Shown here one piece after another: positions 30,626 to 61,164 of a stretch of 64,000 bases of DNA. The DNA is from Aldrovandia affinis (taxonomy: Eukaryota; Chordata; Actinopteri; Notacanthiformes; Halosauridae). The notes under the pieces were generated by a model that was not told where the DNA came from, searched no databases, and worked only from the letters and a program-made list of their open reading frames with translations. Positions within the stretch are counted from its first letter, which is position 1. Each line of letters opens with the position of its first letter. The stretch is from NCBI GenBank assembly GCA_029706075.1, contig JAINUG010000146.1:2624170-2688169 (forward strand). Reading direction: 5' to 3'. The position numbers were made by a program, and so were the translations under genes.

Positions 30626-30807
30626 CTATGGAGAACAAAAGGTTGTGCTATGACTACAACAATATGTGTATGAATTCTCTTCCCCTCCAGCTCTGTGGAT
30701 GACTATATCCTCCCCTCTCTGTCCTTCCATTCAGAAGAGTGGTGGATGACTCTGACATACCGAATCTGGACTGGAACTTTTTAGGCCCCACCTCCTCAGG
30801 TTTAGAC

Positions 30808-32520
30808 ATGAAGACAGAACCTGTGATTGATGGTGTAGATTACACAGTTTTTCAGCTCGGATTAAGTCTGAAAACTGAAGACCTGGAGGAAGAGAAGGAG
30901 TGGAAGACAGGACATGGGATGGACGGGGAGGAAATAGACATTCTTTCCAACATAAAGGTGGAGGAGGATGAAAGCTGGGAGAGACCAAGTGAGGAGATGA
31001 AGAGTGAGGATGGAGTGAAAGATGAAGGGGTAATGGAACTCTGGCTGAAGCAGGAAAAAGAGAGCAGAGATGAAAGAGTGAAGGATGAACCTGATCAAAA
31101 TGGCCAAATGGACAGAGGGATGAAGAATGGAGGACAATCTGACTCCGATATACTACCTTGTAATTACTTTCTGACTTTTATTTGAAGATTTCTGTAAACA
31201 TTTTCTATGTTTTTCCTCCATATTTCTTCCATTTATATTTGTCTCACATGACTTGCTCTCTTCTCAGGTAAGACTGGTGAGGCATTGTCTGAGGTCTTTG
31301 CCTCCTCCCAGTGCTCGTTCCTTCATGTGGAAGAAGTGAAGCTTCACCAGCACATTGAGGGGGTTCCTCCAAACGAGCACAGCAGGATCTTGAGGTCTGG
31401 AGGAAGCAGAGCAGAGAACCCACCACCTCCCAGCAGCTTACGTCAGCACCATGCACCCCCAAAGACACACTCCACCATGACACAGTCCAACACAGACTCT
31501 CATGGGTCCCGCACATGCTCCTATTGTGGAAAGCAATGTAGAAATCTGTCACAACTGACGATACACCAAAGATGCCATACAGGGGAGCGTCCGTACCAAT
31601 GCTCCCAGTGTGGAAAGAGTTTCAGTCGGTCTGGTCATCTGAAAACACACCAGAAAACTCATACAGGGGAGCGCCCGTATCACTGCTCCCAGTGTGGGAA
31701 AAGTTTCAAAGACTCTGGTAATCTGAAATCACACCAGAAAACTCATACAGGGGAGCGCGCGTATCACTGCTCCCAGTGTGGGAAGAGATTCAGTCAGTCT
31801 AGTCATCTGAAAACACACCAGAAAACTCATACAGGGGAGTGCCCGTACCAATGCTCTGACTGTGGGAAGAGATTCAGTCAGTCCAGTTATCTGAAAAAAC
31901 ACCAGAGGACTCATTCAGCAGAGCGACCGTACCACTGCTCTGACTGTGGAAAAAGTTACAAAAACACTGGTAGTCTCAAATCACACCAGAGAATTCATAC
32001 GGGGGAGCGCCCGTATAACTGCTCCCAGTGTGGGAAGGGTTTCAACGTATCAAGTACTCTGAGGATACACAAACAAATGCATGCAGGGGAGCGCCCGCAC
32101 CACTGCTACCAGTGTGGGAAGAGTTTTACTCTGCCATGTCATTTGAAAATACACCAGAGACTTCATACGGGGGAGCGCCCGTACCATTGCTCCCAGTGTG
32201 GGAAGAGTTTCAGTGTGTCTAGTCATCTGAAAACACACCAGAAAACTCATACAGGGGAGCGCCCATACCACTGCTCCCATTGTGGGAAGAGTTTCAGTCA
32301 GTCTAGTCATCTGAAAACACACCAGAAAACTCATACAGGGGAGCGTCCATACCACTGTTCTGACTGTGGGAAGGAGTTTCGCTTATCAAGAGCTCTTGTA
32401 TTACACCAGAAAATTCATATGGGGAGTGCCCGTACCACTGCTCCCAGTGTGGGAAGCGATACAGGTATGCATACCAGCTTAAATCACACCAGAGGACTCA
32501 TACAGCGGAGCGTCCTGTGA
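30808..32520 (+). CDS. C2H2 zinc-finger protein, cassette copy A
   Basis: Two coding exons: 30808-31159 (upstream acceptor at 30734) and 31268-32520, joined in phase 1, 534 residues. The first in-frame ATG begins MKTEPVID; an upstream ATG in another frame soon stops. The acidic N-terminal exon holds seven psi-K-x-E tetrapeptides (MKTE, LKTE, IKVE, MKSE, VKDE, LKQE, VKDE) and a SIM-like IDIL. The second exon has a linker ([13 protein letters not shown]) and eleven C2H2 fingers with TGERPY-type linkers; finger 11 ends in HQKIH. A one-base loss near 32423 then shifts the frame, so a twelfth finger and the tail are lost. Likely nuclear and DNA-binding; the target is unknown. No homologous first exon or promoter remains upstream. 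Copy A is diverged from B and C and lacks the nested L2/Harbinger downstream. Confidence 0.8.
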
Positions 32521-33254
32521 AAGTTGTATACAAGAAAGGTCCTTCCGTACATGCTTTGCTCACATTTTAATAAGTATTATTATGGAAACCGAATTAAATA
32601 TAATCAGTTACAGAATGAGGTATCAGGGTTTTCCCTGCCTGTCTAATGCTTAGGGGGCCCGCCTAAGTGTTTTCTTCGACTGACTAAAAGAAATGGGCAG
32701 TATATAATATAATAAATTCTGGCATTAATACACAGAGGCTTTAACTGCTGCAGTGTCTGTGTCGACTGCTATCTTGCTGTAGCACAAAATACATTGAAAA
32801 TGGGTTGTCACAGTGAAAAAAGTGTCATTCATTAAAAGAATTGACTTAATCTGCCTGTCTGTTTCATACTTCTTACATGGCGCGCTACCAGATTCTGTGT
32901 TTTTGTGGATGTAGAGGCGGAAATTGTATTCATTTGGATGCACCACCATGGCGACCCGCTGTCTGAAAGGCAAGTGACTAAGAGATTGCAAATAATTGTT
33001 AACGTTAGATTGTAGATAGCCTATTTTATAGTGTAAAATTATATTGTAGGATAATGCCAGTTCATAGAATTTTCTGCTGAACACTGCAGAAGATATACTT
33101 TTTTTAAAGAGATCCAGGATAGAAGTGGAGGAGAGGTGACAAACCGTCTTTAAATACAGACTATCATAGTTCAGAATCTGAAACAACATCTCAGTGATTC
33201 CCAAGCTGTTAGACGCCTAACATTGTGATCGATTTTTTACCAATATTGGCTTTG
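32521..33254. other. Spacer without recognised gene
   Basis: AT-rich sequence between copy A and the L2 of cassette B. A minus-strand open frame of about 159 codons (33204-32725) has no recognisable domain and no splice or promoter support; I treat it as chance. Confidence 0.5.
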
Positions 33255-59018: not shown

Positions 59019-59757
59019 TTTTAATAGAAGGATATGTGGAAATTTAATTTTAGCCTGTTTTAATACAATTCAAATTGTGCTTAGAGGGAATTATTTTCAC
59101 CGGACATTATGACCGGAGAGATTTAAATATGTCGGACTTCAACAGATTTTCCCGGTCAAAAACCGGCAATTACCGGATAACGGAAACTCTGGCTGGTACC
59201 TCATCTTCCTACATTTATGAAACAAATGCATTTTTATATCACATAATAGGGTTATCATTGACTCATTTTACATTACTGTACTTCTCAAACTTGTGTTTAA
59301 TATGAACATGGGCACACACTGTAAAGCACTGAGCAGTAACATGTAGCATGTCCTTGGTCAAGAGCAGAACTTGATTCTGTCCAAAATTTCAGTAGTTTTT
59401 AATTTGGTGTTCCATTATTTTGTCTACCCCCTGTTTTGGGTGGTGGCCCAATGCTCGAGTTTGTGCACCAACTGAATTAACTGAATAACTTTTGACTGGC
59501 CCAATGAACTGCATTCCATTGACTGAAAATGTTGTTAATTCTCACACTTCACTGCCTGTCTACACACAGGAGATCGTTAATGACCTAGCTAGCTAATTTG
59601 TAAACAAATGCATCTCTAGGATTATTGCAACATTATTATTCAGGGTTAAGAACAAAAGGTTGTGCTACAAGTACAAAAATATGTGTATAAATTCTCTTCC
59701 AGCTCTGTGAATGACTATATCCTCCCCTCTCTGTCCTTCCTTTTAGAAGAGCGGTGG

Positions 59758-61164
59758 ATGGAATCTGGACTGGAACTTTTAGGTCCCACCTCCTCAGGTT
59801 TAGACATGAAGACAGAACCTGTGATTGATGGTGTAGATTACACAGATTTGGAGCTCAGGTCAAGTCTGAAAACTGAAGACCTGGAGGAGGAGACGGAGTG
59901 GAAGACAGGACATGGGATGGACGGGGAGGAAAAATACATTCTGTCCAACATAAAGAAGGAGGAGGATGAAGGCTGGGAGAGACCGAGTGAGGAGATGAAG
60001 AGTGAGGATGGAGTGAAAGATGAAGGGGTAATGGAACTCTGGCTGAAGCAGGAAAAAGAGAGCGGAGATGAAAGAGTGAAGGATGAACCTGATCAAAATG
60101 CCCAAATGGACAGAGGGATGAAGAATGGAGGACAATCTGACTCTGATATACTACCCTGTAATTACTTTCTGACTTTTATTTGAAGATTTCTGTAAACATT
60201 TTCTATGTTTTTCTCAGTTGTGTTCGTGTCCGCATACATCCATATTTCTTACATTTATATTTGTCTCACATGACTTGCTCTCTTCTCAGGTAAGACTGGT
60301 GGGGCATTGTCTCAGGTCTTTGCCTCCTCCCAGTGCTCATTCCTTCATGCGGAAGAAGTGAAGCTTCACCAGCATATTGAGGGGGTTCCTCCAAATGAGC
60401 ACAGCATGATCTGGAGGTCTGGAGGAAGCAGAGCAGAGAACCCACCACCTCCCAGCATTGTACGTCAGCACCCCGCACCCCCAAAGACAATCTCCATCCT
60501 GACACAGTCCAACACAGACACTCATGGGTCCCACACATGCTCCCAGTGTGGAAAGCAATATAGACATCTGTCACAACTGACGAAACACCAACAACGATGC
60601 CATACTGCAGATAATCCGTACCAATGCTCCCAGTGTGGGAAGAGTTTCAAACACTCTAGTACTCTGACAATACACCAGAGAACTCATACAGGGGAGCGCC
60701 CATATCACTGCTCCCTTTGTGGGAAGAGTTTCAGTCAGTCTTATGATCTGAAAACACACCAGAGAACTCATACAGGGGAGCGCCCGTACCACTGCTCCCA
60801 GTGTGGGAAGAGTTTTAGTCAGTCTTATGATCTGAAAACACACCAGAGAACTCATACAGGGGAGCGCCCATACCACTGCATTGACTGTGGAAAGAGTTTC
60901 AGTGAATCGAGTACTCTCAAATCACACCAGAGAACTCATACAGGGGAGCGCCCATATCACTGCTCCCAGTGTGAGAAGAGTTTCAAACACTCTAGTAGTC
61001 TAAAATCACACCAGAATACTCATACTGGGGAGCGCCCGTACCACTGCTCTGACTGTGGGAAGAGTTTCAAACAGTCCAGTAGTCTTACAATACACCAGAG
61101 ACATTCTCTGTGGCTCAGTGGAGCGCACGTACCACTGCACTGGTTGTGGAAAGAGTTTCAGTGA
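59758..61164 (+). CDS. C2H2 zinc-finger protein, cassette copy D, shortened
   Basis: Coding exons 59758-60157 and 60290-61164, phase-1 junction, 424 residues; the exon acceptor ends at 59746. It starts [20 protein letters not shown]. psi-K-x-E motifs are kept (MKTE, LKTE, IKKE, MKSE, VKDE, LKQE, VKDE), but the SIM-like IDIL is changed to KYIL. The linker is followed by six complete fingers and a seventh that breaks after LTIHQRH. There, unrelated bases near 61091-61130 shift the frame and a stop follows. Four more fingers lie beyond. With the YY1/ETS module at 53940 it could still give a six-finger protein, although intron 1 carries the hAT. Confidence 0.75.

Follow-up and report, generated by a model that had tools for sequence, protein, structure and literature searches.

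Four tandem C2H2 zinc-finger genes of the fish Aldrovandia affinis open with a coding exon that is packed with the psi-K-x-E consensus for SUMO attachment; the excess of this motif is specific to lysine, extends through a large family in the same genome, and involves residues that are more constrained than the rest of the exon. Our preferred reading, to which we give a little under an even chance, is that the exon encodes an N-terminal region, charged and probably disordered, that accepts SUMO at several sites in a large C2H2 family of this ray-finned fish. The genes lie in a window of 64,000 nucleotides (the whole stretch of DNA analyzed), and all relatives compared with them come from the window's own genome.

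Gene structure and family size

The first coding exon is present in all four copies (A to D), on the forward strand and with usable splice sites (Table 1), and its length is 119 to 123 aligned codons across copies, verifying the earlier note's description of an opening exon of about 115 to 135 codons in each. With a slash marking the splice boundary, the exon 1 acceptor reads ...TTCAG/AAGAG in copy A and ...TTTTAG/AAGAG in copies B to D, the exon 1 donor CTT/GTAATT in copy A and CCT/GTAATT in copies B to D, and the exon 2 acceptor CTTCTCAG/GTAAGACTG. A second acceptor-like site lies about 45 bases upstream of the exon 1 acceptor in copies A, C, and D, and not in B, so exon 1 may begin there in some copies. 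Because an in-frame TGA stands two codons before MKTE in 9 of the 23 closest-cluster sequences, the methionine of this first motif may be the start codon.

Table 1. Features of the four gene copies, in window coordinates
Feature	Positions	Strand	Remarks
Copy A, SUMO-consensus-rich first coding exon	30735..31159	+	Splice sites read; MKTEP ATG at 30808
Copy A, exon 2, linker with degenerate finger and C2H2 array	31268..32520	+	Frame lost near 3' end
Copy B, SUMO-consensus-rich first coding exon, 7 motifs	35803..36189	+	Motif count
Copy B, exon 2	36322..38491	+	Frameshift in linker; stops interrupt array
Copy C, SUMO-consensus-rich first coding exon, 6 motifs	45179..45565	+	Seventh lysine is threonine
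Copy C, exon 2, linker and 15-finger array	45698..47214	+	Longest open reading
Copy D, SUMO-consensus-rich first coding exon, 7 motifs	59747..60157	+	Splice sites and motif count
Copy D, MKTE (K8), P next	59806..59817	+	M is a possible start codon
Copy D, IKKE (K56 site, exon residues 55-58)	59950..59961	+	Exon D reading
Copy D, exon 2, linker and array	60290..61573	+	Frame lost at about 61164

Joined, exons 1 and 2 read in frame into the linker. Spliced readings from MKT give 534 amino acids with 11 fingers in copy A and 618 amino acids with 15 fingers in copy C; the spliced reading of copy B, with its linker frameshift, contains no fingers, and that of copy D has 6 fingers and then a frameshift. 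The suggestion that arrays have decayed in some copies therefore holds for B and D but not for A and C, which can still be read as long proteins. Membership in the C2H2 family is indicated by in-frame arrays downstream in A, C, and D and by Pfam zf-C2H2 matches in the array frames of all four.

The family is far larger than the four copies first implied, with 150 relatives scored of 245 candidates in the 1.22-Gb genome that contains the window; at least five finger patterns follow the exon in 34 of 40 long loci. Family statistics are drawn from 64 aligned exons in 22 clusters, and cluster-corrected tests use one representative per cluster.

Lysine-specific motif excess and constraint

The exons of copies A, B, C, and D carry 7, 7, 6, and 7 psi-K-x-E tetrapeptides, respectively (psi being V, I, L, M, or F), in agreement with the six or seven initially reported, against a shuffle mean of about 0.4; none of 200,000 shuffles per copy reached the observed count. 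The linker-plus-array frames of A, B, C, and D contain 0, 0, 0, and 0. Among the 22 cluster representatives psi-K-x-E occurs 99 times where 9.3 are expected, whereas the control psi-R-x-E occurs 8 times against 7.1 expected, E-x-K-psi, the motif read backward, shows no excess (7, with 9.3 expected), and the other offsets of psi and E that were tried around lysine reach a maximum of 37. The motif signal is thus lysine specific, as SUMO attachment would require, and an excess that is both beyond chance and lysine specific is what was sought as the mark of a SUMO-acceptor transcription factor like Sp3 or HIC1. Shuffles with composition held fixed rule out composition as the source of the excess, and the psi-R-x-E control rules out a pattern that any positive residue would produce.

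The 64 exons together contain 323 psi-K-x-E where 25.7 are expected, an excess that overstates the number of events because related sequences are not independent. At least three motifs are retained in 59 of the 64, and 6 are individually unexceptional, with more than 50 of 5,000 shuffles reaching their count (L036, L037, L039, L042, L047, and L063). Nearly half of the motifs (149 of 323) are NDSM-like by a definition made for this analysis, namely at least three acidic residues among the next six.

Two lysines are near-fixed in cluster-weighted sequences, K8 (89%) and K56 of NIKEEE (98%), the latter belonging to the family's most conserved psi-K-x-E, which is IKKE in copy D and mostly IKEE or MKEE elsewhere. 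Across the family the other five sites move or disappear, and the lysine column of site 5 is K at a frequency of 0.45 and R at 0.41. The motif is found at 17 alignment columns, and the tree requires at least 46 changes of state in total. Even so, 61 of the 64 exons have site 4 in one or the other of two registers, a pattern that fits retention of the motif rather than of its position. Nearly invariant residues also occur outside the motifs (E33, D17, T19, E22, N54, and K112).

Taken together, the psi, K, and E codons of the motifs are constrained to a degree matched, among 20,000 sets of codons drawn at random, by 84 sets in the close cluster and, in a further 20,000, by 57 sets across the 22 representatives. 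Both pN and pN/pS are lower at motif codons than at the rest (pN/pS, 0.13 versus 0.37 in the window four, 0.41 versus 0.62 in the near cluster, and 0.68 versus 0.85 among the 22 representatives). Such constraint is what a SUMO acceptor would be expected to show for psi, K, and E jointly, with the caveat that pS at motif codons is lower too in the near cluster (0.051 versus 0.114), so part of their reduced change may be local. The comparison of psi-K-x-E codons with their neighbors, proposed at the outset as a check, was accordingly positive for the three residues together, but when lysine is considered by itself the result holds at just K8 and K56; motif-lysine columns change more than the five other lysine columns (pN 0.208 versus 0.137 among the 22 representatives). 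A simple column count in the four window copies gives no signal of motif conservation (Fisher p = 0.30), and window exons diverge as much as or more than the short introns (pairwise differences of 2.0 to 7.0% versus 0.8 to 5.6%), indicating that the exon as a whole has no extra conservation.

The acidic SIM-like peptide GEEIDIL is indeed present in copies A to C, as had been noted (copy D has GEEKYIL), but it is not a conserved part of the exon. IDIL occurs in 9 of the 64 exons, and SIM-like matches number 4 among the 22 representatives against 9.0 expected, so the conserved hydrophobic core flanked by acidic residues that would mark a SIM-bearing protein is not seen. We therefore rejected GEEIDIL as a functional SIM.

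Candidate effector role and alternatives

A Pfam scan of the four exons at E<=10 returned 0 families, and no Pfam match to KRAB, SCAN, BTB, or zf-AD was obtained in 43 members at E<=1, so a KRAB, SCAN, BTB, or ZAD identity of the exon, which the earlier note had not recognized, is rejected. A search of PDB with a profile of the 43 members likewise gave no match at E<=1; a strong match to a named domain, sought as evidence against a new effector, was thus found in neither Pfam nor PDB. A whole-genome KRAB search, run without a positive control, gave no match. Against an approximate FiNZ-like sequence, the family profile scored 5.5 bits, ranking 20th of 501 when placed among its 500 shuffles; an uncontrolled search of the fish's own genome with this approximate query gave no match. 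The approximate FiNZ-like sequence itself has 4 psi-K-x-E in 60 residues where 0.44 are expected, and FiNZ may therefore share the SUMO-motif property.

If the exon is a multi-site acceptor, target choice would fall to the finger array, the targets probably being repeats derived from transposons. SUMO would be conjugated by Ubc9 to lysines of psi-K-x-E, mainly to K56 in NIK(E)EE and K8 in MK-x-E and in addition to other sites that vary between members. The SUMO groups would then recruit SIM-carrying silencers (SETDB1, NuRD/MTA, L3MBTL, and HP1). The original proposal of a SUMO-based effector exon survives in part: the lack of a named domain, the lysine-specific excess, and the constrained motifs agree with it, its SIM component fails, and disorder of the exon, SUMO attachment, repression, and target choice are all steps that we infer.

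An alternative that we regard as unlikely is recruitment of a TIF1-type corepressor, either TRIM33 or TRIM24, by a KRAB-like or FiNZ-like protein interface in the exon, the SUMO sites serving just to tune it. Coimmunoprecipitation of FiNZ and fish KRAB-like zinc-finger proteins with TRIM33 was read by the authors as a possible interaction (PMC11603059), and FiNZ is likewise reported as an N-terminal module that is rich in E and has a separate exon before the array (PMC10547256). The nearly invariant residues outside the motifs would also suit a binding interface of this kind, but none of the members scanned has a Pfam KRAB match, and the approximate FiNZ-like sequence scored within the range of its own shuffles.

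It is more doubtful still that SUMO serves as a brake, the sites being synergy-control motifs that hold back activation by an N-terminus with acidic, hydrophobic, and tryptophan residues. The exon is rich in D and E with scattered W, L, and F, and 50 of the 323 motifs have the form psi-K-x-E-P, near that of the synergy-control motif; however, acidic make-up by itself does not explain lysine-specific placement, and vertebrate multicopy zinc-finger families are mostly tied to repression. Equally improbable is that the motifs belong to a charged linker and were simply inherited with it, having nothing to do with SUMO, so that the repeated K-x-E reflects common descent and acidic composition: shared ancestry of all the sequences, drift at five of seven sites (including the K/R mixture at site 5), and window exons no less diverged than introns are compatible with this, but psi-R-x-E and other residue controls have no such excess, the shuffles hold composition fixed, constraint is stronger at motif codons than elsewhere in the exon, and the motif occurs at 17 columns.

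Comparison with known systems and implications

For the multi-site SUMO acceptor that we favor, the best reading by analogy is a mode of action like that of the Sp3 (IKEE) and HIC1 (MKHEP) sites. The presence of SETDB1, Mi-2, L3MBTL1/2, and HP1 at promoters targeted by Sp3 is reported to require its IKEE (PMC2978682), and HIC1 without MKHEP is reported to have strongly reduced binding of MTA1 (NuRD), the MTA1 SIM being needed as well (PMC5356852). The commonest K56 form in our family is IKEE, as in Sp3, and site 1 in the window is MKTEP, comparable to the HIC1 peptide; unlike those proteins, several sites, putative and read from sequence alone, are clustered in one N-terminal exon of a multicopy paralogue family.

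SUMO is also used in the silencing step of the KRAB-ZNF/TRIM28 system (PMC7915335), which resembles this family in its multicopy arrangement of effector exon plus array, but here there is no KRAB match, and the SUMO sites would sit on the zinc-finger protein itself, not on the corepressor. The FiNZ module is described as 28 amino acids, E-rich, encoded by one N-terminal exon before the array exon, present in hundreds of copies, without known-domain similarity, and unique to cyprinids (Wells et al. 2023, PMC10547256). The present exon is likewise a single E-rich N-terminal exon before the array exon, in many copies and without known-domain similarity; it differs in its length of about 120 amino acids, and profile similarity to the approximate FiNZ-like sequence was not seen. 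RAG1 of the present genome scores 899 and 898 bits against the two best PDB RAG1 chains, which are from zebrafish, and 790 or less against the remaining chains, mouse included; this fits a ray-finned fish that, judged by the residue differences, is probably not closely allied to cyprinids. The family thus appears to be built like the KRAB and FiNZ families, a likeness of construction and not a demonstrated kinship. Clustered zinc-finger genes of Xenopus carry FAX modules, acidic N-terminal modules with IKEE-type peptides, which are said to have been described by Nietfeld in 1993; the present exon may resemble them in kind. The term SUMO does not appear in the main text of four FiNZ papers, including PMC10547256 and PMC11603059. 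Among literature judged by title or the start of the abstract, we recognized no description of SUMO-site-rich N-termini in fish zinc-finger proteins, and searches with exon peptide strings returned nothing relevant by title.

How zinc-finger proteins silence retroelements in ray-finned fish is a question to which this SUMO-rich family speaks, as one report describes these fish as lacking TRIM28 and KRAB zinc-finger genes (PMC11603059). It is conceivable, though rather unlikely, that in one lineage of ray-finned fish there arose yet another kind of zinc-finger family that silences transposons, distinct from both KRAB and FiNZ, in which the zinc-finger protein itself carries the effector as a SUMO platform with many sites. 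Such a platform would bring in SETDB1 and NuRD with no need for an adaptor of the TRIM28 type, and turnover of the motifs would maintain the dosage of SUMO even as individual positions change. The mechanism of repression by FiNZ proteins is itself posed as a question in the FiNZ paper (PMC10547256). An N-terminal exon that keeps lysine-specific SUMO motifs while their positions turn over offers an answer that is concrete and can be tested, namely that the zinc-finger protein itself bears the SUMO, and an exon packed with this attachment motif may be the means by which the family silences its targets.

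Gene copies and relatives in the genome

The window, which forms one end of a 2.69-Mb contig (assembly size, 1.22 Gb), carries a C2H2 zinc-finger gene in four tandem plus-strand copies, A to D, each with at least two coding exons. Each first coding exon is preceded by an AG acceptor and followed by a GTAATT donor; the exon 2 acceptor junction reads CTTCTCAG before and GTAAGACTG after the splice, which is spanned by a Cys codon, and the joined frame continues through a linker and then the fingers. In 9 of the 23 members of the closest sequence group (the near cluster), an in-frame TGA lies two codons 5' of the methionine of motif site 1, and this psi residue may be the start methionine. 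The linker and the matching stretches of the other copies resemble a degenerate C2H2 finger, and in a genome search the copy C form had scored matches outside the near cluster at 53 to 66% identity.

Features of the 64,000-nt window
Feature	Coordinates	Strand	Remarks
Copy A first coding exon	30735-31159	+	splice sites read; from MKT, spliced 534 aa, 11 fingers
Copy B first coding exon	35803-36189	+	splice sites read; from MKT, spliced 204 aa, 0 fingers; linker frameshift
Copy C first coding exon	45179-45565	+	splice sites read; from MKT, spliced 618 aa, 15 fingers
Copy D first coding exon	59747-60157	+	splice sites read; from MKT, spliced 408 aa, 6 fingers
Pre-array linker of copy A	31268-31500		
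Direct duplication, 3.8 kb	39705-43434 and 51569-55359		95.6% identity
Stretch with two further copies	33254-34688; copies 41473-42902, 53399-54827		97.0% and 95.8%
Long open frame, C17orf113-type zinc finger (PF25431), with neighboring hAT dimerization region (PF05699)	57204-59066 and 56488-57012	-	Pfam families
DDE_Tnp_4 fragment just 3' of copy C	47566-48048	+	presumably Harbinger-type
Reverse transcriptase fragment (RVT_1) preceding copy C	44120-44509	-	
Open frame with presenilin-like peptide	6071-6565	-	probably presenilin

The repeated stretches in the window, 95.6 to 97.0% identical, suggest growth of the zinc-finger cluster by recent segmental duplication. The PF25431 and PF05699 frames beside copy D are probably a hAT-like transposon.

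A genome search with the exon D protein gave 245 candidates, of which the 150 scored were 46 to 100% identical and fell in two clusters on the window's contig and on many other contigs; the linker gave 535 candidates, 150 of them scored. We fetched 60 relatives from the exon D matches, weighted to the top (40 with flanks, 20 as exon only). All 60 contain the exon, and 34 of the 40 flanked loci have at least five finger patterns within ~3.5 kb downstream. The other six (L020, L031, L033, L036, L042, and L047) have 0 or 1 in that span, perhaps reflecting a longer intron or another partner; in several of these, the reading stays open well beyond the exon, with an end resembling SPLKQLPDSSEKE. In one relative, L024 (exon at 3499-3858, minus strand), the exon, the array, and a truncated linker between them form a single intronless open frame of 581 aa, apparently through a deletion across the intron. 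Among RAG1 chains in the PDB, those of zebrafish are the best fit to the RAG1 of this genome, and we therefore take the host to be a ray-finned fish.

Motif excess and lysine specificity

The four window exons matched no Pfam family at E ≤ 10, and a profile of 43 family members found no PDB chain at E ≤ 1, in agreement with the earlier note, which had not recognized the exon as KRAB, SCAN, BTB, ZAD, or a clear FiNZ domain. Searched singly, the 43 members hit six unrelated Pfam models at E ≤ 1, one or two members apiece (best E = 0.0038, HTH_SUN2, one member), and exon A alone, searched against the PDB at E ≤ 10, recovered a single chain (E = 0.96) whose alignments were weak and scattered. On these searches, the exon did not qualify as KRAB, and membership in FiNZ would be at most putative.

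The six or seven psi-K-x-E tetrapeptides (psi = V, I, L, M, or F) first noticed per exon were borne out by counts of 7, 7, 6, and 7 in A to D over 119 to 123 residues, copy C having threonine in place of the seventh motif lysine. Same-residue shuffles averaged ~0.4 and reached the observed count in 0 of 200,000 for any copy, and the linker-and-array frames of A to D contain none (0.12 to 0.21 expected). Across 64 exons (4 window and 60 fetched; 22 clusters at 80% identity), 323 motifs were found against 25.7 expected, with six exons unexceptional individually; one representative per cluster gave 99 against 9.4.

With the lysine place changed in the 22 representatives, there were 8 matches for R (7.1 expected), 12 for S (7.6), 7 for E (19.9), and 2 for D (8.0), and alternative psi/E offsets around lysine reached at most 37 against ~9 expected. 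A structural or compositional cause would be expected to accept arginine, which shows no excess. This specificity for lysine over arginine is the strongest evidence for the earlier proposal that the exon could be a SUMO-based effector domain. The acidic SIM-like GEEIDIL segment, which the earlier note pointed out in A to C, did not hold up: IDIL was found in 9 of the 64 exons, and the 22 representatives have fewer SIM-like patterns than their shuffles (4 versus 9.0 expected).

Conservation of the sites

Cluster-weighted lysine frequencies at the seven window sites are 0.89 at K8 (site 1), 0.64 at K28 (R, 0.31), 0.98 at K56, 0.68 at K71, 0.45 at K77 (R, 0.41), 0.51 at K87, and 0.14 at K98, so that K8 and K56 are near-fixed and five are not; the nonmotif lysines K39, K49, K90, and K112 stand at 0.79 to 0.85.

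Psi/K/E codons versus the rest of the exon (the last two columns count control sets equaling or undercutting the motif pN)
Sample	Nonsynonymous difference	pN/pS	Random codon sets	Circular slides
Near cluster (23)	0.021 vs 0.071	0.41 vs 0.62	84/20,000	2/118
Four window copies	0.010 vs 0.042	0.13 vs 0.37	789/20,000	3/118
22 representatives	0.180 vs 0.273	0.68 vs 0.85	57/20,000	0/118

Constraint on the motifs relative to the rest of the exon was upheld for psi/K/E codons taken jointly, in both pN and pN/pS and in all three samples; the gap in pN/pS is smaller because synonymous difference is also lower in these codons (near cluster, 0.051 versus 0.114). It was not upheld for motif-lysine columns alone across the 22 representatives, where they are less conserved than the five other lysine columns (0.208 versus 0.137), whereas the near cluster gave 0.033 versus 0.214. 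Among the window copies, divergence is 2.0 to 7.0% in the exon and 0.8 to 5.6% in the short intron, and thus the whole exon is no better kept than the intron; variable columns (core, 1 of 21; other, 16 of 102) did not differ significantly (P = 0.30).

SUMO precedents and motif turnover

Sp3 requires its IKEE motif for SUMO attachment, and the presence of SETDB1, Mi-2, L3MBTL1/2, and HP1 at target promoters depends on this motif (PMC2978682). HIC1 binds the NuRD component MTA1 far less strongly when MKHEP is deleted; the MTA1 SIM is required for this binding as well, and other contacts contribute, as the authors emphasize (PMC5356852); a psi-K-x-E-P motif in HIC1 is named in the title of a cited reference. 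The IKEE/MKEE and MKTEP/VKDEP sites of this family are of the same kinds. Proline directly follows E in 50 of the 323 motifs of the 64 exons, and 149 have at least three acidic residues among the next six.

KRAB proteins are reported to reach SETDB1 via auto-SUMOylated TRIM28 (PMC7915335); TRIM28 and KRAB zinc-finger genes are reportedly missing in ray-finned fish, with TRIM33 a proposed substitute for TRIM28 (PMC11603059). The KRAB and FiNZ families are described with the same architecture, an effector exon followed by an array exon in many copies (PMC10547256). A word search found no occurrence of SUMO in the main text of four FiNZ papers, and we recognized no description of a SUMO-rich fish zinc-finger N terminus among the open-license PMC papers surveyed.

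Psi-K-x-E occupies 17 alignment columns, and the minimum number of state changes summed over these sites is 46, gain being indistinguishable from loss; the underlying tree excluded the columns of 10 of the 17. Site 4 is occupied in 61 of 64 exons, in one or the other of two registers, at least three motifs are kept in 59, and one subfamily (L052 and L055) has an extra MKTEIKAE pair. Turnover of this kind would be expected of a SUMO-site dosage maintained at loosely fixed positions, although sequences within a cluster are nonindependent.
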